Origin: a virus
Virus record (IMG/VR): IMGVR_UViG_3300008262_000117
Coordinates: 1-47,572 of that record
Reading direction: 5' to 3' (one strand)
DNA: 47,572 nucleotides
The position numbers and the translations under genes are program-made. Under the pieces are notes generated by a model. That model saw only the letters and a list, made by a program, of their open reading frames with translations. It was not told the DNA's origin and did not search any database. Position 1 is the first letter of the stretch, and each line of letters opens with the position of its first letter. This document shows, in pieces, positions 1,485 to 29,200 of the stretch.

Positions 1485-1601
1485 TTAAACAACCGAGTAT
1501 TCCCCGCACTCCGTGCAGGTCACCAGTTCTTCGGCAGCAGTCATGGAACGAACGACTTCTCTGTGGTGCTCGTTAGAACACTTATAGTCGTAAGTTGCCA
1601 T
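1485..1601 (-). CDS. FmdB-like zinc-ribbon microprotein, 38 aa
   Basis: The product begins MATYDYKCSNEHHREVVRSM and continues to a CTECG knuckle (C29, C32). This matches the layout of FmdB-type zinc ribbons, which start M-P-T-Y-x-Y-x-C and have a second C-x2-C, although the first half here has C8 and HH12-13 in place of the usual C-x2-C. Its ATG overlaps the reductase stop as TAATG, so it is translationally coupled to that gene. FmdB-type ribbons are often called regulatory, but the role is not established. Confidence 0.65.
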   Translation of the reverse strand: MATYDYKCSNEHHREVVRSMTAAEELVTCTECGEYSVV

Positions 1602-3649
1602 TACTTATCTTTTTGGTTCTCCACAATAAGCTTAATCTCGCATGCGTCTGTGGTGCAGTAAGCATCGCCAATAGCATCAGCTGCTAGTCCTGCATACACG
1701 CCAGAGAAATCAATAGGGAAGAGTTTCATTATAGAATCTTCATACTCTTCTTCAGTGATTTGGGTGTAAGGCATTTGTGGGTATGTGAAGTTTCCTGAAG
1801 GTAGGAATGAGACAGTTTTAAGCTGTCCGTCATACATGTGAAGGACTGTGCCTACATGCTCTGATTCCTTTTCAGGATCGAATGAAACTGTGACAGATAC
1901 AGAGTTATCAGACCAATAGTGTTGTGCAGTTGCAGCAAGGCTCATCTTCTCAAAGATGGTTACATCTTTCTCTGCACGAGATGCGCCAGATTTAATTGGA
2001 AAGAAAACAACACTAGTTGTATCTGGAGATTCAGATGCTGGTTCTACTGTGTAGTTAGCCATCTTAAAAAGTGGGAGCATTGGGTCTGTGTTTCCAAAAC
2101 GAATTGCTCGCTTGAAGAACTTACCACCTGGAGTCCAGTGAACTCCTGGTGATTCACCTGCAAGGATTGAAACAGTTCCTGATGGTTTTACAGTAGTTGT
2201 TTTGATTGATTCACGGATACCAAGCCACTCAGAGTAAGTAACATCATAGCTTTTAATTGTTGCGTATCCATCGTCCATCCACTTTCGTAGGACTGGGAGT
2301 CCGTGGAGGTCTGCAAAGTTTGCAACTCCCGACATAGACGTTCCAATTCTTCGGTTACGTTGCATAATTGCATTTGTCTCTTCCCAGTGTGTTGGAAGGA
2401 GAGTGACAGTTTTTGCGTAGAGATATGCGAATTTAAGTGTTCGCTTGTAATCTTCGATTGAGTCGTGACGGTTGAGGTAAGTTTCAACGAGAGTGCAGCA
2501 CTCATAGGATTCAAGTGACTGCTCTGCACACGGGTTGTAACCTGCAACTCGGTGGTCTTTGTTGTTGATTGGGTCTGCAAGTCTTCCGTATTGTTTAGAA
2601 ACATCCAGCCAAATTACACCAGGCTCACCGTTTCTGGCAATACCCTCAACAATGTTTGAAAGGTCTTGTCCTACTTCAACAGAGACAGAGTTGTTAGACA
2701 TCCAAGCCCAACCGGGTGCATCTGCATCATAAGAGTTACGCTGTGGGAACTTCTCTGCATTCTTCAAGTTCAAGAAGTTATCATCATCTAGACGACCAAT
2801 TAAAAGCTCTGCTGAACGACGAACGTTTCCTGAGACAACACAAACGCCAATAAGATTTCCAATATCTGCAATGTCTACACGTGTGAGCTTCTCACCTCCA
2901 CGTCCAGCAAACATTTTGCGGATGTGGTTGTGTAATTTAATTAGTGGGTCGGGTCCTGCTGCTGTTCCACCAAAAGTTTTGATTGGCTCTCCGAGCGGGC
3001 GGATTTCTTTGTAATCAAATACTGGAGCCGCCGTATCTGGTCGTAGGAAAGCATCGAGGAGGGCTGTGGTTGATTCCACCCATCCTTCTCTGGTGTCTGG
3101 GATGACATAGGTCTCTCCTTCTTCTGGTGTGTAGATTGTAAAGTCTTTGTCAGCACCTTTGTCATCAAAACCAACACCAACGCCAAGCATTGATGCTTCC
3201 ATAAGAAATCCAAAAGGTTTTGATGGATTGTTCTTTGTCATCTCTGCAGTTGAAACAAATGCGCAGTTTTGAAGTGCTGCTGAGTTTCTCTGGACATTAA
3301 CAATGTTAGTTCCCATTACCCAAAGTCCACGTCCTGGTGGAGTCCACTTCAAGTTGAATAAACGGTCAAATGCTTCTTTTGCAGATGCTTGTGCGCGAGA
3401 GTCATTCCAAGGAAGACGCTGTGATTTGCAATGGTCTTTTTGAATTGAGTACATACCATTAACAACTCGTTCGCAAACATCTGACCAAGATTCTTTAGTT
3501 CCATCTTCTTTTAATCGTGAGTATGTGCGAAGAAATGTAATCTCACCTACGGAGTTACCTGCTGCATCTGTATAACCAAATGGCGCTTTCTTATCCTTAT
3601 ATGTTGCAACAAAGTCTTTTGACAAGGAAAAAGAGAAAGCGATACTCAC
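1601..3649 (-). CDS. nrdJ: class II adenosylcobalamin-dependent ribonucleoside-triphosphate reductase
   Basis: This 682-residue protein matches the monomeric B12-dependent reductase family (Lactobacillus leichmannii type), which reduces ribonucleotides to deoxyribonucleotides in the cytoplasm. The key residues can be aligned by spacing: C129 (family C119), C374 and E376 in NPCAEQ (C408, E410), C385 (C419), the KPSGTVSILAGESPGVHW loop at about 488-505, and a C-terminal CTTDAC pair (C665, C670) equivalent to the thioredoxin-reducible C731/C736. The length is normal, with no visible intein or truncation. The start is GTG at 3649 behind AGGAG. The radical generator is adenosylcobalamin, so the enzyme works without oxygen but requires B12 in the host. 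It supplies nucleotides for phage replication. Confidence 0.96.
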   Translation of the reverse strand: MSIAFSFSLSKDFVATYKDKKAPFGYTDAAGNSVGEITFLRTYSRLKEDGTKESWSDVCERVVNGMYSIQKDHCKSQRLPWNDSRAQASAKEAFDRLFNLKWTPPGRGLWVMGTNIVNVQRNSAALQNCAFVSTAEMTKNNPSKPFGFLMEASMLGVGVGFDDKGADKDFTIYTPEEGETYVIPDTREGWVESTTALLDAFLRPDTAAPVFDYKEIRPLGEPIKTFGGTAAGPDPLIKLHNHIRKMFAGRGGEKLTRVDIADIGNLIGVCVVSGNVRRSAELLIGRLDDDNFLNLKNAEKFPQRNSYDADAPGWAWMSNNSVSVEVGQDLSNIVEGIARNGEPGVIWLDVSKQYGRLADPINNKDHRVAGYNPCAEQSLESYECCTLVETYLNRHDSIEDYKRTLKFAYLYAKTVTLLPTHWEETNAIMQRNRRIGTSMSGVANFADLHGLPVLRKWMDDGYATIKSYDVTYSEWLGIRESIKTTTVKPSGTVSILAGESPGVHWTPGGKFFKRAIRFGNTDPMLPLFKMANYTVEPASESPDTTSVVFFPIKSGASRAEKDVTIFEKMSLAATAQHYWSDNSVSVTVSFDPEKESEHVGTVLHMYDGQLKTVSFLPSGNFTYPQMPYTQITEEEYEDSIMKLFPIDFSGVYAGLAADAIGDAYCTTDACEIKLIVENQKDK

Positions 3650-5061: not shown

Positions 5062-5091
5062 AAAACAATCCTACAGGTGTAGGGTGTGGTT

Positions 5092-5745
5092 ATGGAACAC
5101 TACAACGTAGTAATTGCAACGCCTGGTTCTGATATGAAGGCGGATTTTGTAAAGAGCCTGATAGAGACTACAAAATGGCTTAATCACAAAGGTTTGAAGT
5201 ATCACTTTGTATCTCAATATTCGAGCTTTGTTCCAAGCGCCAGAGAGAACACTGCAACCGACTCTTACGGGGCGGATTGGCAAGCGGTGGCTTTTGGGGG
5301 TGGAGCCTTTACCTATGAAAAGATTATTTGGATAGATTCAGACATCTCTTGGTCTGTGAAAGATTTTGAGTTAATTTTGAAAAGCGATAAGGACATCATC
5401 TCTGGAATGATGGCTATAGGTCGAGATGGTCGTATAGGGGCTATGAGGGTTAATGAAGCAGGACATCCTGTCTCTCTAAACGCTGTGGAGTTTCTAGTAG
5501 AGGGTGAGCCTGTCAGGGTTGATGGGGTAGGTTTTGGATTCTTGGGGGTCAAGTCTGGGGTCTTTGAGAAGATGGCTAGGCCATGGTTCAAGATTCGAGA
5601 GACTGGGGTTGAAGGGGCAGACTTTCCTGTCATGTTGGGGGAGGACTACTCTTGGTGTGTTGGGGCTAAAGAGGCTGGGTTCCAGATTTGGCTACATCCC
5701 TTGGTCAGGGTTGAGCATCATAAGGCAGTCATTTTTACTGTCTAA
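5092..5745 (+). CDS. GT-A fold glycosyltransferase-like protein
   Basis: The 217-residue product starts with a Rossmann-like strand (YNVVIATPGSDMKADFV), has the metal-binding DxD motif as WIDSDISW (about 81-88) and a later GEDYSWCVGAKEAGF segment (about 181-195) typical of the acceptor and general-base region of GT2-like enzymes. It would transfer a sugar from a nucleotide-sugar to an unknown acceptor, for example phage DNA bases, virion protein or host wall polymer. The start could be GTG 5086 or ATG 5092; ATG 5092 is chosen because AGGG sits 7 bases upstream. It is isolated between the leftward operon and the repeat region. Confidence 0.8.
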   Translation: MEHYNVVIATPGSDMKADFVKSLIETTKWLNHKGLKYHFVSQYSSFVPSARENTATDSYGADWQAVAFGGGAFTYEKIIWIDSDISWSVKDFELILKSDKDIISGMMAIGRDGRIGAMRVNEAGHPVSLNAVEFLVEGEPVRVDGVGFGFLGVKSGVFEKMARPWFKIRETGVEGADFPVMLGEDYSWCVGAKEAGFQIWLHPLVRVEHHKAVIFTV

Positions 5746-6257
5746 ATGTCGACATTTGAGGCAGATTTCTCTGCATGGTCGATTATTCAAAATCTAGTGT
5801 TTGGTGTATAGTTTTTAGAGTTACTATCATCAAAAAAGTTCAGCCTTTTTTGTAAAATCCTGATAGTAGTTTATTTGGGCTGTAAAAATAACTATCAAGA
5901 AAAAAGCTAAAAAACTTTACAAACTGCGATAGTTATTTTTTTCATTGTAAAACATACTATCAAGAAAAATAAAAAGTTTTTTAAAAAATCGTGATAGTAC
6001 AGTTTTTTGCAGGAAGGTCTCTACTATCAAAGAAAATTCAAAAACTTTTTAAAAATCGTGATAGTAAAAATAAAAACTATACTTAATATTTTAATATTCA
6101 ACCTATTTCCTATACGCGTATGAGAAAAAAGTTTCACCCCCTAAGAAAATGGGTTGAGAATTCGAATATTTAAAACTAGTATTAGGTTGTATTTAAAAAT
6201 AGTGTATGGTAGTATCTAAGTCCCAGATTGGGGTGGAAATTGGTGGAAGGATTTAGG
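5746..6257. other. gene-free AT-rich region containing the ACTATCA repeat array
   Basis: About 510 bases without a credible gene. The left half holds four spaced repeat units (listed separately). The right half (6070-6250) is AT-rich with TATACGCGTATGAG at 6113-6126 and ends at the promoter of the next gene. No tRNA is visible. Such a repeat-rich AT stretch between transcription units is a usual place for a replication origin or partition site, but this is inference. Confidence 0.7.
5823..6065. repeat. array of four 43-45 bp units with ACTATCA/TGATAGT ends
   Basis: Units lie at 5823-5867, 5891-5933, 5956-5998 and 6023-6065. Each begins ACTATCA and ends TGATAGT (second unit: CGATAGT), so the 7-base ends are inverted repeats. 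The interiors are A-rich then T-rich then A-rich and similar but not identical. Spacers are 22-24 bp, giving a period of 65-68 bp. TGTAAAA precedes units two and three. The arrangement suggests binding of a dimeric protein at regular helical positions, as in iterons, centromere-like sites or multi-operators. Confidence 0.85.
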
Positions 6258-6286
6258 TTGACAAGTTCTCTAGTGTTAGGTAATAA
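6258..6286 (+). promoter_or_regulatory. promoter TTGACA-17-TAATAA, leaderless transcript predicted
   Basis: A perfect -35 (6258-6263) and a good -10 (6281-6286) with 17 bp spacing end 7 bases before the ATG at 6294. The RNA would start at or next to that ATG, so the message is probably leaderless. Confidence 0.8.
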
Positions 6287-6293
6287 TACTTTT

Positions 6294-6485
6294 ATGAATG
6301 ACAAAATGACAGTGACTCCTGAGAGAGTCAAGTATGTGATTGCTGGTCGTTTGATGAAAGATTGGTTTCCTACAAGGATTCCACTAGATGCAGACGAGTG
6401 GTTAAAAATCGCAACCAGAGATGCTGAGGCAGTGGTTGACGAATTGATGGCTCATGGACTTTTGAAAGTTGAAGGTGCCAAATGA
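6294..6485 (+). CDS. hypothetical protein, 63 aa, possible small winged-helix
   Basis: The protein begins MNDKMTVTPERVKYVIAG and ends with a DAEAVVDELMAHGLLKVEG segment resembling the recognition helix and turn of small winged-helix proteins; this is only a weak resemblance. The ATG at 6294 has no Shine-Dalgarno and lies at the predicted transcription start. Its stop overlaps the next start as ATGA. It opens the rightward operon 6294-7652. Confidence 0.7.
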   Translation: MNDKMTVTPERVKYVIAGRLMKDWFPTRIPLDADEWLKIATRDAEAVVDELMAHGLLKVEGAK

Positions 6486-6712
6486 GTTGGGAACAAGTAG
6501 CAGTTATTGGGGTAGTAAATTTCTTTAGTGTTTTTATGGCGATGTTTATTATTTCTGCCATAAACGCATTTAGAGAAGCACGACGCAAAAATGAGTTCCT
6601 CGAGAGAATGCTTGGGGGCTTGATTGAAAAAGCTGAGACGGATACTCAGTTCAGAAACATCATGGGGTGGAACTTCATGGGAAACGAGAGAGACAACAAT
6701 GACGAACGCTAG
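6482..6712 (+). CDS. hypothetical membrane protein, 76 aa
   Basis: One N-terminal membrane segment (about residues 5-27, VAVIGVVNFFSVFMAMFIISA) is followed by a charged helix (FREARRKNEFLERML) and a polar tail. The family is unknown. ATGA overlap with the upstream gene; its end overlaps the next gene by 14 bases. Confidence 0.75.
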   Translation: MSWEQVAVIGVVNFFSVFMAMFIISAINAFREARRKNEFLERMLGGLIEKAETDTQFRNIMGWNFMGNERDNNDER

Positions 6713-7178
6713 AGATGCACTAGCCATGCTAGGACTTAGTGCAGAAGAAGCAGTTGAGGCAGATGAAAGTCTGACTCGCAAACCAAGTCGTGACAAGAGG
6801 ATTTGCCTCTGTGGTCACGCTATAAACAAACACTCAACCGACGCTGGTTTGGTTATATGTGTACCAAGCAGATACAACTGCCCTTGTAAAAATCTTCGTC
6901 CAGTAGTTGAGGTTGAAGACACCAGACTGTTCCTGAGAAAGACCAGTGGTCCTGGAGTAGAACACGCTTTGACTCGTGGACTTGCTGCATCCTTCAGTGC
7001 AGACAAAAATGTTGAGTGGATTGAAAATCCTAAATGTGACAAGTGCTCGATTGAAGCAACTCCAGCAGGAGATGTGAGAATTGTGCCAACAGCAGTCACT
7101 GAGTATAAAACCGTCTCTTATGAAGCGACTGGTTACGATGCTCTTCTTTGCGAGAATTGTCTTGAGGCGATACGATGA
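6699..7178 (+). CDS. double zinc-site protein, 159 aa
   Basis: Two cysteine clusters are visible: CLCGHAINKHS followed by C and CPC within 31 residues (about 35-65), and CDKC (about 116-119) pairing with CENC near the C-terminus (about 153-156). Each could bind one zinc ion. The first pattern, a C-x-C-G-H with a later C-x-C, occurs in phage hypothetical proteins but has no function known to me. ATG 6699 is chosen because GAGAG precedes it and the longer frame overlaps the upstream gene heavily. Confidence 0.75.
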   Translation: MTNARDALAMLGLSAEEAVEADESLTRKPSRDKRICLCGHAINKHSTDAGLVICVPSRYNCPCKNLRPVVEVEDTRLFLRKTSGPGVEHALTRGLAASFSADKNVEWIENPKCDKCSIEATPAGDVRIVPTAVTEYKTVSYEATGYDALLCENCLEAIR

Positions 7179-13476: not shown

Positions 13477-13818
13477 ATGGAAGAGAACGAGATTCTAGAC
13501 GCGGAGCTTGTAGAAGACGGCTCGCCTATAGAGGTAAAAATAGTAGACCCGCAGCCTGTAGAGCGCTCGCTAGGTTACTTCGCGCTTGACGGGAACTACG
13601 GAGACGCTAGCGGTCTGCTCGTATTGGAAACTACATTTTGGAGAGAAGTAGATTGGGAAATCCTCGAGTCAGCATCGGATAGCCAGCGTGCAAATGTCGC
13701 ACGGTTAATAACGGAGTCCTACGAGAAGCCTGAGGAGATGTCGGTGTTGTATGACAAGTTCGAGCAATACGGTATTGACCTCGATAACTTTATGCCGCGG
13801 GACCAGCTTGACAGTTAG
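13477..13818 (+). CDS. hypothetical acidic protein, 113 aa
   Basis: Unrecognised. It has an acidic N-terminus (EENEILDAELVEDG), a mixed middle (FALDGNYGDASGLLVLE) and a helical C-terminus. GGAAGGGTAAAAACGGG precedes ATG 13477, so a GGGTAAAAA copy lies in the ribosome-binding leader. The longer frame from 13453 would translate that site and is less likely. Confidence 0.7.
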   Translation: MEENEILDAELVEDGSPIEVKIVDPQPVERSLGYFALDGNYGDASGLLVLETTFWREVDWEILESASDSQRANVARLITESYEKPEEMSVLYDKFEQYGIDLDNFMPRDQLDS

Positions 13819-13840
13819 GCCCTTGATAGGGTAAAAATCT

Positions 13841-13871
13841 TACGTGGGTTTCTTCGTCGTTATCCCACGTA
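13841..13871 (+). terminator. hairpin TACGTGGG/CCCACGTA
   Basis: An 8 bp perfect stem (13841-13848 with 13864-13871), with a 15-base loop, between two transcription units. There is no following T-run; another T-run lies at 13902. Confidence 0.5.
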
Positions 13872-13970
13872 GACCTGAGCAAGTCACAAAACTGCTCACC
13901 TTTTTTTTGGCGCTCGCCATTTTTATCCCCACAGGGTCAGGAAATAAATCAAAAAGTTTTGGTGTTCTAC

Positions 13971-13999
13971 TTGACAATGGCAGGAAGATGAAATAATCT
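13971..13999 (+). promoter_or_regulatory. promoter TTGACA-17-TAATCT with GGCAGGAAGATG
   Basis: A consensus -35, the family spacer element and a good -10. GGCAGGAAGAT and ATCTTTTCCTGTC form an imperfect dyad around the -10, which may be an operator. It drives 14030 through the AACGACGAAAGGA leader. Confidence 0.8.
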
Positions 14000-14029
14000 T
14001 TTCCTGTCAAACGACGAAAGGACACCCAA

Positions 14030-14521
14030 ATGGGATACACCCATTATCTAAAAAGAAGTCTCGATAGTAACGAGCCTGAACTTTATGAAAAGGTTCGTAA
14101 AGGTTTTATCGAGTTAGTAAAAAAAGCTGACCTCAATGGCATAACAGTTGCAGATGCTTTTGGAGAAAAAGCAGGTGCGTGGCAAGCAGATGGCGAGCGC
14201 ATCGCTTTCAATGGCATTGAACCACAAGCGTGTGAAACTTTTCATTTCTCTCAGATAGTGCCACCTGCACCTGATTGGGATAAAGATGCAAAAACTTCTT
14301 TCAACTTTTGCAAAACACAAATGCACCCTTACGACACTTTAGTTTGTGCAACCCTAATACTCATCAAAGATGTTTTTGGGAAGCAAGTTGAAGTTTCCTC
14401 AGATGGGGGGTGGGAAGAGTGGTCTGAGGGTCTAGCCCTCTACACCTCAGTTTTCGGAAAGACCACGACACCTGAAAATCTTTTTGCTGAAGAGTTTGCA
14501 CATTTAGCAGAGAGATGGTAG
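14030..14521 (+). CDS. conserved hypothetical protein (MGYTHY family), 163 aa
   Basis: It starts MGYTHYLKR and contains the recurring pattern FHFSQIVPP, FNFCKTQMHPYDTLVCATLILIK and VEVSSDGGWEEW. Proteins of this layout are frequent in phages and some bacteria, without a function known to me. It leads a unit continuing to the MoxR/VWA pair. Confidence 0.8.
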   Translation: MGYTHYLKRSLDSNEPELYEKVRKGFIELVKKADLNGITVADAFGEKAGAWQADGERIAFNGIEPQACETFHFSQIVPPAPDWDKDAKTSFNFCKTQMHPYDTLVCATLILIKDVFGKQVEVSSDGGWEEWSEGLALYTSVFGKTTTPENLFAEEFAHLAERW

Positions 14522-16225: not shown

Positions 16226-17995
16226 ATGGCACACATAAAGATTTCTGCCACTAGAGCAGAGTCCACTCCGAAAGAGTGGTTAGGCGTAGGCGCACAGATA
16301 GGCGAACTTGTAAATACTTGGTCTGATAGGTCAGACCTAATCGCTTATGTAGGTGAAGGTGCAGGTGGTAGCGCACCAGCGTGTTACAACCCTGCGCTCG
16401 CAGAGGTTGAAGTAAATACAGAGATTGCGTTTGGCAAAGTAACAACTCCAATGATGGTTGGAGATTTACGCGAGCGCACTCAGCAGTATGAGTTTCCTAA
16501 AGCAACAGGCGCAATACTTCACGAAGCGTTTCACGCAAAGTTTTCTATTTTTGACATACCAAAGGCTCACAAAGATTTAGAAAAAGATGAAGTTGAAGCT
16601 TTGATGTTACTTGAAGAAGGTCGCATTGAAACTCAGGGTGTTTGGCACAAACCTGACTCTCTAAACTTTCTACGCTCTTGCGCGATGGAAATAGTTATCG
16701 CAGATGCAAAAGAAATGGAAGCAAGCACTTCAACTACTCAAAGTTGCGCTAGTGCGATTGGTTTAGTGTTGGCTCGCGTTGATGCGGGCATCATAGATGC
16801 TGATGAAGTTGCAGGTATCGAAAAGCAGGTTTTAGATTTCTTAGGTGAAGAAGTTGTTTCTAAGTTGCGAGAGATTTCTAAAACTTTCCGCGAAACTATT
16901 ATTGACTTCCCAACTCAGGGAGAAACTCTTCTCTATCCATTAGCAAAAGAGTGGGCGAAGATTATTCGCGATGTGAAAGAAGAGAAGGGCGAGAAAGATG
17001 AGCAGATGGCTCAGGCTTTCGCTCAGGCTCTTATGGAAGCATTAGAAGAGGCTTCAGATGAAATGTCAGTTTCAACAAGTATGGCGCTATCAGACCAACA
17101 AATGTCTGAGGAAATGGCAGAGGAAGCAAAAGCAAAAGCAGACCAAGCCAAAGAAGAAAATGACAACAAAGATGTGGCAAAAAAAGTTTTCAATAAATCC
17201 ACAACAGAAACAGGTGGAAACACAAACTCGACTCTTGTAGAAGTTCGTAAGCCAACTAGCGCAGAGCGCATCGCGGCAGTTACGATTTCTAAGATGCTAG
17301 AAAAAGCAAAGTATCGTGACAGAGATGCGACAGAGATTACTTCAATTATTCCTCCCGGAAGATTGCGCTCTCGCGCACTCGTCCAAAATGCCGCGATGAA
17401 GTCACGCGGAATTGTGCAACAAACAGAAGCGTGGCGTCGCACAGTTCGTAAGCAGACAGAAGAAACAACTCTTACAGTTGGCGTGATGGTGGACATTTCA
17501 GGTTCTATGGGAGATGCGATGAAGCCAATGGCTACAACTGCGTGGGTTATGTCTGAAGCAACTCGCAGAGTTCAAGGAAGATGTGCGATGGTTTATTATG
17601 GTTCAGATGTTTTTCCTACCTTGAAGGCAGGACAACACCTTGAAGAAGTTCGTGTCTATTCTGCGAGCGACTCAACTGAAAAGTTTGACAAAGCATTTCG
17701 CGCACTTGATGGCGCACTAAATCTTCTCAATGGAAGTGGCGCTCGCTTACTTGTAATTGTTTCAGATGGACAATACACACACGAAGAAAAAATAAAGGCT
17801 CGTCATTGGACAAAGCGTTGCGCCGAGTCAGGCGTTGCGGTTCTATGGCTTCCTTTTGATGGCGGTCATTACGCCAAGTCTTTACTCGATAATAAATCGG
17901 GCGTGGTAATGTCAGGTGTGCTTGACCCTGTATCGGCTTCCGTAGAAATCGGAAGGACGGCAGAGCGAGTTCTAACAAATGTGGGAACGCGGTAG
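16226..17995 (+). CDS. VWA-domain partner protein with HExxH motif, 589 aa
   Basis: The N-terminal half contains HEAFH (99-103), the zinc-metallopeptidase HExxH signature, followed by an LLEEGRIE helix (about 128-135) that could give a third ligand. The middle (about 250-325) is a highly charged coiled coil. The C-terminal third is a von Willebrand A domain with a complete MIDAS, DISGS (423-427), and a later VSDG. MoxR-VWA pairs act as chaperone or chelatase systems, and CobT is the VWA subunit of cobalt chelatase, but CobT lacks HExxH as far as I know. Hence a metal-dependent protease or remodelling role is equally possible. Confidence 0.88.
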   Translation: MAHIKISATRAESTPKEWLGVGAQIGELVNTWSDRSDLIAYVGEGAGGSAPACYNPALAEVEVNTEIAFGKVTTPMMVGDLRERTQQYEFPKATGAILHEAFHAKFSIFDIPKAHKDLEKDEVEALMLLEEGRIETQGVWHKPDSLNFLRSCAMEIVIADAKEMEASTSTTQSCASAIGLVLARVDAGIIDADEVAGIEKQVLDFLGEEVVSKLREISKTFRETIIDFPTQGETLLYPLAKEWAKIIRDVKEEKGEKDEQMAQAFAQALMEALEEASDEMSVSTSMALSDQQMSEEMAEEAKAKADQAKEENDNKDVAKKVFNKSTTETGGNTNSTLVEVRKPTSAERIAAVTISKMLEKAKYRDRDATEITSIIPPGRLRSRALVQNAAMKSRGIVQQTEAWRRTVRKQTEETTLTVGVMVDISGSMGDAMKPMATTAWVMSEATRRVQGRCAMVYYGSDVFPTLKAGQHLEEVRVYSASDSTEKFDKAFRALDGALNLLNGSGARLLVIVSDGQYTHEEKIKARHWTKRCAESGVAVLWLPFDGGHYAKSLLDNKSGVVMSGVLDPVSASVEIGRTAERVLTNVGTR

Positions 17996-27481: not shown

Positions 27482-27509
27482 ACTTTAACACCTTCCTGCA
27501 CTTTGTCAA
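27482..27509 (-). promoter_or_regulatory. promoter TTGACA-16-TAAAGT with GTGCAGGAAGGTG
   Basis: A near-perfect family member on the minus strand. A 9 bp hairpin CTATAAGGC/GCCTTATAG lies at the predicted RNA start (about 27457-27478). GCGTGTCGC sits just upstream. Confidence 0.85.
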
Positions 27510-27518
27510 GCGACACGC

Positions 27519-27752
27519 CTACTCGACATTTCTTTCAATGTCTCTAGTTGCCCCACAAGTTGGACACTTCCACTCGTAGTATTCGGTGTCGTGTGACAAT
27601 TCGATTTCGACATCTGCTTCGACATCTTCAACCTCAAACATCTTGCACTCTTCGTTATAGCAAGCCTCTGCACGAACATCACTCCACTCGTGCTGAGCCC
27701 CTGAGATTTGGTATTCGTTTCCTGTAACACCTGCGGGATAGTTGCTTGACAT
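27519..27752 (-). CDS. zinc-binding protein, 77 aa
   Basis: CYNEEC (about 31-36) and CPTCG (about 63-67) form a zinc site around an acidic middle (EVEDVEADVEIELSHDTEYY). The sequence around WKCPTCGATRDIE is ribbon-like. ACGACGAAAGGAAAACAA leader. Confidence 0.75.
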   Translation of the reverse strand: MSSNYPAGVTGNEYQISGAQHEWSDVRAEACYNEECKMFEVEDVEADVEIELSHDTEYYEWKCPTCGATRDIERNVE

Positions 27753-27785: not shown

Positions 27786-27813
27786 ACAATAGCACCTTCC
27801 TGCACTATTGCAA
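27786..27813 (-). promoter_or_regulatory. promoter TTGCAA-16-TATTGT with GTGCAGGAAGGTG
   Basis: Family spacer element intact, weaker -35. It drives the 27752 gene. Confidence 0.75.
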
Positions 27814-27849
27814 GTCGAATCGCTGTTTATTACATCACATTTTGATAAC

Positions 27850-28603: not shown

Positions 28604-28631
28604 AATCTATCACCTTCCTGCACTATGTCAA
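28604..28631 (-). promoter_or_regulatory. promoter TTGACA-16-TAGATT with GTGCAGGAAGGTG
   Basis: A perfect family promoter, followed by a GGTGAG/CTCACC hairpin at about 28580-28594. About 20 bases upstream lies TTGTTACCAAATCGTTATCA, the same element as upstream of the 19437 promoter. Confidence 0.85.
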
Positions 28632-28679
28632 GTCATAACCCCCCATATTTGATAACGATTTGGTAACAAAGTTTTAGCC

Positions 28680-29200
28680 TCTAACATCACAATAACCCCT
28701 ACACACCTGACCAGACCTGACCACCTATAGCCCCCAGCCAGACTAACCAGCCAAGCACTAGGCACACCAGGCACACCTGGTCAGACTTACACAAGTTGTT
28801 TGTATCTCTAGCCAAAACATTTGCTACTCGTCAGTAGCTTCCTCCACCTCCTCCACCACCAGACCCACCACCTACTAACCCACCTACCTCTACTCACAAG
28901 CACCTAGCCCAAGCACTAGCCCCAAGCCTTGACCACCTTGACCACCTAGCCCAAGCACCAACACCTAGACAACACAAGACACACTCAACATTGACAAGCA
29001 CAAGCACATAGACACAAAAAAGTAAGAGCCTCTCAACAAAGCAAGCACATAAACACAAAAAAATAACAAGATAATGACAACCTGCCTACTTTTTATAAAA
29101 CAAAAACTAAAAAGCACACAACAAAGCACAAGAAAAAACAATCCTGGCAGCAAAACAAAAACCAACAAAACAACGAAAAAAAGCCCGGAACGATTTGGCA
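28680..29200. other. gene-free stretch almost devoid of G on the plus strand
   Basis: The plus strand is almost only A, C and some T, with recurring CAAGCACTAG, CACCTAGCCCAAGCAC, GACCACCT and later CACAAGCACA phrases. The only long frame (minus strand, about 28965-29237) is a low-complexity Phe/Val/Leu product caused by the skew. Such amino/keto skew is seen at some origins, packaging sites and unstructured RNA regions. Confidence 0.7.

Follow-up and report, generated by a model that had tools for sequence, protein, structure and literature searches.

Paired half-sites with lineage-specific letters at a multi-site locus and a helicase promoter in freshwater actinobacterial phages

The stretch of DNA analyzed here (the window) is the 47,572-bp IMG/VR virus record IMGVR_UViG_3300008262_000117. 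Sequence similarity marks it as part of the genome of a freshwater actinobacterial phage akin to DSL-LC01, a phage whose 129-kb genome was assembled from lake water (PMC10611076). The window's portal protein shares 74% identity with its counterpart in Actinomycetia phage DSL-LC01 and 57-62% with those of the Microbacterium phages Pumpernickel, Zooman, Big4, Cece, and A3Wally. Nearly the whole window is matched colinearly, at approximately 94-99% identity, by a 160.7-kb contig (G002), which also has the array described below. The same contig holds, at 138-160 kb (L078-L079), a second copy, approximately 80% similar, of the structural region found at 26.7-47.5 kb of the window, and may be a composite assembly or a duplication.

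The array locus sits between divergent gene blocks. From the stop of the glycosyltransferase gene to the next operon, the sequence is 73% AT and contains no convincing gene. The features of the locus are listed below, with the strand given for those that have one.

5086..5745, + strand: glycosyltransferase-like gene, so named in an earlier reading of the sequence alone (phrog_1574, annotated unknown function); ends left of the array
5822..5868: unit 1, TACTATC-N33-GATAGTA, half-sites 5822-5828 and 5862-5868; near-identical in the related loci L004/L005
5890..5934: unit 2, AACTATC-N31-GATAGTT, with inner A and C non-complementary (ACTATCA / CGATAGT)
5955..5999: unit 3, TACTATC-N31-GATAGTA
6007..6017, + strand: TTGCAGGAAGG word, in the spacer between units 3 and 4
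6022..6066: unit 4, TACTATC-N31-GATAGTA; the copy best kept in L006/L097, L026/L094, and L095
6085..6170: element 2, a long imperfect inverted repeat with arms at 6085-6111 and 6144-6170
6167..6212, + strand: two 23-bp direct repeats, TATTTAAAAnTAGT...GGT
6258..6287, + strand: sigma-70-like operon promoter, TTGACA-18-AATAAT (11/12), approximately 190 bp downstream of unit 4
6294..6485, + strand: 63-aa protein, first gene of the operon, found only in close relatives by the search used
6482..6712, + strand: small membrane protein, by sequence inspection; similar small genes lie here in relatives
6699..7178, + strand: zinc-ribbon 'CICGH' protein, 159 aa, conserved and used as the landmark of the array locus in relatives

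Four dyad units of the form TACTATC-N31/33-GATAGTA were read directly at 5822-6066. Without the outer flanking base, unit 1 spans 5823-5867 (45 bp, ACTATCA...TGATAGT), unit 2 spans 5891-5933 (43 bp), and units 3 and 4 span 5956-5998 and 6023-6065 (43 bp each); the outward flanking base, T/A, extends the unit ends to TACTATC...GATAGTA and is A/T in unit 2. Start-to-start distances are 68, 65, and 67 bp, and the spacers are 23, 22, and 24 bp. These values agree with the earlier reading (hereafter the sequence-only reading), which had described four spaced units of 43-45 bp, repeating every 65-68 bp with spacers of 22-24 bp, in an AT-rich, gene-free stretch. The 7-bp inverted ends that it gave, ACTATCA...TGATAGT, hold for units 1, 3, and 4 but not for unit 2, whose right end, CGATAGT, is one base off (6/7 match). 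The pattern ACTATCA-N26..34-TGATAGT had three exact matches in the window, compared with none in 100 dinucleotide shuffles. The proposed phasing at six helical turns did not stand, as 65-68 bp amounts to 6.2-6.5 turns and the period in two-unit relatives is mostly 57-59 bp.

When the 600-bp array region was compared with phage records by DNA similarity, only chance matches were returned, and Rfam and tRNA scans produced no credible match. The units were rejected as promoters themselves, since none of the four has T as the sixth -10 base; with the base that follows the right half-site, they read TAGTAG, TAGTTA, TAGTAC, and TAGTAA (final T in 0/4). A packaging or terminus site was likewise rejected for the array, the syntenic locus being internal in Microbacterium relatives recorded as linear genomes.

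The sequence-only reading had also noted that one spacer carries a word found in promoter spacers, and this was confirmed: besides TTGCAGGAAGG between units 3 and 4, the minus strand has three copies of GTGCAGGAAGG, at 27491, 27795, and 28613, within TTGACA-like promoters. The spacer word is kept as TTTTTGCAGGAAGGTCG in L006 and as TTTTTTGCAGGAAAATCG in L026 and is replaced in L012. Minus-strand promoters with TTGACA-N4-GCAGGAAGG recur in the window at 27490-27530, 27790-27830, and 28610-28640; the GCAGGAAGG word, shared by these promoter spacers and the spacer between units 3 and 4, is also present in relatives and is perhaps a host-factor site. Elsewhere in the window, a low-complexity, strongly C-rich, and mostly gene-free stretch (28650-29200, GC skew approximately -0.28) lies between the small-gene and structural regions. 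An AAA ATPase at 15039-16082 matches ATPase and porphyrin/cobalamin-type families; beside it, at 16226-17995, is a gene for a protein of 589 aa; the corresponding DSL-LC01 protein carries the annotation 'cobalamin biosynthesis protein'. A B12-dependent ribonucleotide reductase is encoded at 1601-3649. All three are conserved in five genomes.

Loci of relatives were gathered by a profile search with the CICGH protein, which yielded 80 loci, from which 63 non-redundant upstream regions were counted. This 159-aa protein has two predicted zinc sites; its AlphaFold model has a confident fold (pLDDT 91) with no significant match in the PDB, and no CICGH homologues were found in bacterial genomes. 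A sequence-agnostic count of inverted 7-mers in the loci gave the lineage pairs TACTATC/GATAGTA, TACTAGG/CCTAGTA, TACTAAG/CTTAGTA, and TACTAAC/GTTAGTA. Of the 63 regions ahead of a CICGH gene, 29 had at least one exact unit of the general form TACTAxy-N30..33-y'x'TAGTA (shuffle mean 0.06, maximum 1) and 34 had none; relaxed rules brought the count to 37 of 62 regions, but shuffles then gave 7.5. TACTA was the sole 5-mer core that behaved in this way (29 regions), the next best (7) being its own shifted overlaps. Among 45 units, the gap was 31 bp in 28, 30 bp in 9, 32 bp in 7, and 33 bp in 1. The unit ends were kept in relatives; their loss was part of what the sequence-only reading had named as evidence against it.

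By lineage, the letters xy at the array locus are TC, GG, AG, or AC. A single xy was used in 15/15 phages with two or more exact units, a count in which part of the TC set, but not the GG, AC, or most of the AG sets, had been selected by the TC pattern. When 2.9 million viral contigs were scanned by pattern alone for doubled units of the AG or GG type, every match with a period of 57-59 bp adjoined a CICGH gene, including the previously unseen L184, and the remaining matches were simple repeats and chance. As judged from these comparisons, the conserved feature is the unit with TACTAxy half-sites 30-33 bp apart, not the phasing between units, and the four units of the window at 65-68 bp are a local elaboration.

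The syntenic region of the Microbacterium relatives is without the TACTAxy array. At the syntenic place in phage Cece (L089, 5695-5760), there are dense CTATC/GATAG palindromes (AACTATCCACTATC...GATAGTGGATAGTT) with a layout unlike that of the array. In Pumpernickel, the intergenic region upstream of the CICGH gene is 1.16 kb long, and several CGCAGnnTGCG-type dyads (L088, 4757-5340) are maybe a lineage-specific site set of its own.

Element 2 separates the array from the operon and has a core of CCTATACGCGTATG (6109-6122) and CACCCCCTA, with a run of C. Counterparts were found in 41 upstream regions, where the arm sequences differ yet stay complementary; the core TATACG(C/T)GTA ... CTAGGGG is best conserved in the AG/GG clade, and many relatives have a long inverted repeat around TATACGCGTATA together with a CCTAGGGG-like second palindrome. 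Mismatches in the arms comprised 62 G-T versus 41 A-C, a weak strand preference, and alifold gave a consensus fold for the AG/GG clade with almost no covariation term. An RNA reading of element 2 was rejected on these two results, and the repeat is regarded as a DNA-level element. An N15-type telomere (protelomerase) site was also considered for the TATACGCGTATA core and rejected, as the flanking arms are not centred on the palindrome.

A search of whole contigs turned up a second locus, approximately 70 kb from the array in the replication cluster, where it is flanked by the genes for a RuvC-like resolvase and the DNA helicase. A unit was present in this gap in 17/17 phages examined, including 12 fetched afterwards; in G002, the near-identical relative of the window, this unit has the sequence AACTATCAAGAAATAAAAAGTTTTTTAATTTTTCGTGATAGTA and is separated from the array by 73 kb. 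The left half at the helicase is TACTAAG in AG phages, TACTAGG in GG phages, TACTAGC in GC phages, and AACTATC or TACTATC in TC phages, and its xy letters are those of the array in 11 of the 12 typed phages. An odd variant, TACTTAG, occurs at both loci of DSL-LC01. The two loci change letters together, as if they tracked one control protein with a shifting specificity. Whole-genome scans of five near-complete genomes, with mismatches allowed, gave no convincing locus beyond the array and the helicase.

The right half at the helicase reads TGnTAGTAT in 14 of the 17 phages and TAGTAT in 16. Because TGnTAGTAT is so common, and because Microbacterium relatives without the unit have sigma-70-like promoters at the same spot, with a TGCTAGxxT-type extended -10 (TGCTAGTAT, TGCTAGGCT, TGCTAAGCT), the right half is placed on the helicase promoter, at its extended -10. 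It is non-symmetric (GTTAGTA) in several phages of the AG and GG types, as would be expected if it were a compromise between promoter and operator demands, and on account of this asymmetry the helicase site may be bound as a half-site. As in an operator regulon, a like site is found at at least two separate loci per genome, and the change is matched between loci across lineages. The promoter overlap of such a regulon is present at the helicase and not at the array; the nearest good promoter is the one some 190 bp to the right of unit 4, and that the array does not overlap it counts against the operator reading.

Our preferred reading, to which we give a probability of about 75%, is that the units are cognate sites of one phage-encoded regulator, dimeric or a dimer of dimers, acting at the helicase promoter and the multi-site locus. 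The regulator would read the two lineage-specific letters xy (TC in the window phage) in inverted TACTAxy half-sites approximately 38 bp apart centre to centre, with a 31-bp A-tract-rich middle, and the same protein would bind the single site at the replication-helicase promoter approximately 70 kb away. Binding there would most simply block RNA polymerase until the right stage of infection. The array and the adjoining element 2 would probably serve this circuit as a control centre with high occupancy, be it as a multi-operator, an origin, or both. The anatomy of the sites, their conservation beyond chance, their presence at two loci per genome, the matched change of letters, and the promoter overlap at the helicase are observed; that a protein binds them, as a dimer and a repressor, and what the multi-site locus does are inferred. 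A half-site separation of 38 bp is large for a simple HTH dimer, which counts against the regulator. The dimeric protein and multi-operator put forward by the sequence-only reading appear to fit best, given that the arms change together, that each phage uses one variant, and that a cognate unit overlaps the helicase promoter; the helical phasing between units is not conserved.

Proteins with DNA-binding features in all five near-complete genomes were a small serine recombinase, a two-HTH protein, a 61-aa HTH protein, and WhiB proteins. The two-HTH protein (approximately 165 aa) is the leading candidate binder, a tentative choice that we would put at somewhat less than even odds. Its gene lies within approximately 1-9 kb of the array in nine phages; in DSL-LC01 it is at 13797-14285, and orthologues are present in G002, G015, G018, and G022. 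In a set of 50,697 phage records, the two-HTH protein was found in eight, precisely those with a CICGH gene, whereas the helicase is present in hundreds. The recognition helix of the two-HTH protein is AYSG in most AG phages, GG phages, and DSL-LC01, AYAG in TC phages of the clade of the window, AYPG in GC phages, and TYAG in some AG phages, a pattern that does not separate AG from GG and is confounded by phylogeny. Its AlphaFold model has two helical HTH modules (pLDDT 83) and no significant match in the PDB.

A replication origin, in which the array would provide initiator (iteron-like) sites and element 2 with its AT-rich flank the melting or priming site, is possible but rather unlikely. 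The site at the helicase promoter would then let the initiator regulate the replication operon, and it suits this account that the second target is a replication gene, that the array has several sites and the helicase one, and that the locus is gene-free, 73% AT, and placed between divergent gene blocks. The origin is kept among the possibilities because the array adjoins element 2, whose long inverted repeat with its conserved TATACGCGTATA / CCTAGGGG core recurs in 41 upstream regions. The tandem sites by an AT-rich, structured element are thus as in an iteron origin, which the sequence-only reading had listed, but the strand-composition switch is missing. Cumulative GC skew, the check proposed with that reading, tracks gene orientation and gave no origin signal, and in five genomes the third-position skew of coding strands kept its sign across the array, although skew signals are often missing from phage genomes. 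Two further points weigh against an origin: the array is absent from the Microbacterium syntenic region, and no initiator was recognised.

Complementary arms that change together, as seen in most units, would also arise if each unit were a stem-loop of a structured RNA or a cruciform, with the arms kept by base pairing. This is very improbable, since TACTA is invariant without compensated drift, one xy is used throughout the units of a phage although pairing does not require it, unit 2 has an A/C mismatch, the arms of several helicase sites do not pair (TACTAAG with GTTAGTA), the A-rich middles hold no second stem, and there was no credible Rfam match. Resolvase-like sites of the small serine recombinase, a 219-aa protein kept in five of five near-complete genomes, are similarly hard to credit. 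The recombinase is disfavoured as the binder because phage G025, in which the flanking RNR and primase genes are covered, has units at both loci and no detectable recombinase; in addition, one site overlaps a promoter -10, and the half-sites of small serine-recombinase crossover sites are much closer together than those of the array units. Least credible is a partition centromere (ParB/ParR-type), which was among the earlier suggestions. Tandem regular sites in a gene-free stretch would suit it, but the second site lies on the helicase promoter, the genes present (terminase, RNR, polymerase) are of a lytic type, for which partition would not be needed, and a general look through the genes conserved in five genomes, rather than a dedicated ParA/ParM search, revealed no partition protein; we found nothing in its support.

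Among sites described in actinobacterial phages, those with a lineage-shifting consensus that appear nearest by analogy to the array units are the extended start-associated sequences (ESAS) of Cluster K mycobacteriophages and the operators/stoperators of Cluster A. Each ESAS has 17-bp arms around a spacer, in most cases of 4-13 bp, and goes with a 13-bp SAS, a sequence found at many start codons (PMC3203893). Like the array units, ESAS are paired inverted half-sites at conserved gene starts with a consensus that varies between subclusters, a left half nearer to consensus than the right, and no assigned binder (PMC3203893). The array units differ in their 7-bp arms, spacer of approximately 31 bp (30-33), two loci per genome, lack of a SAS, and -10 overlap. 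Stoperators (L5, Bxb1) are 13-bp sites present in 20-30 copies genome-wide, oriented with transcription and serving temperate-phage immunity; they share with the array units a lineage-specific site that evolves with its cognate repressor and a position at promoters (PMC6550527). In contrast, the array units are 45-bp dyads at two loci, in phages without an integrase or repressor recognised here. Because neither the defining geometry nor the copy number of ESAS or stoperators is found, the units are filed as a new variant among phage operator systems, a member of neither. Iteron-type origins (lambda ori, plasmid oriV) likewise combine tandem dyad sites, an AT-rich stretch, and further inverted repeats, whereas the array lacks a skew signature and sites of its type are found again at a promoter far away.

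The literature found on DSL-LC01-like phages covers genome features only, and the units offer an initial clue to what a conserved non-coding locus of these phages does, possibly in replication control. In this group of lake actinobacterial viruses, the regulator and its sites appear to switch specificity together, and the natural series of matched site pairs (TC, GG, AG, GC, and TTAG at both loci, AC at one) would make the evolution of DNA-binding specificity and the insulation of co-infecting phages testable with a few short DNAs and proteins. It is conceivable, though rather unlikely, that the array and element 2 are a replication control centre of a new kind, whose initiator/regulator, with a rapidly switching two-letter specificity, also gates the helicase promoter. 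If so, initiation would be coupled to helicase supply, and related phages in one cell would be mutually insulated.
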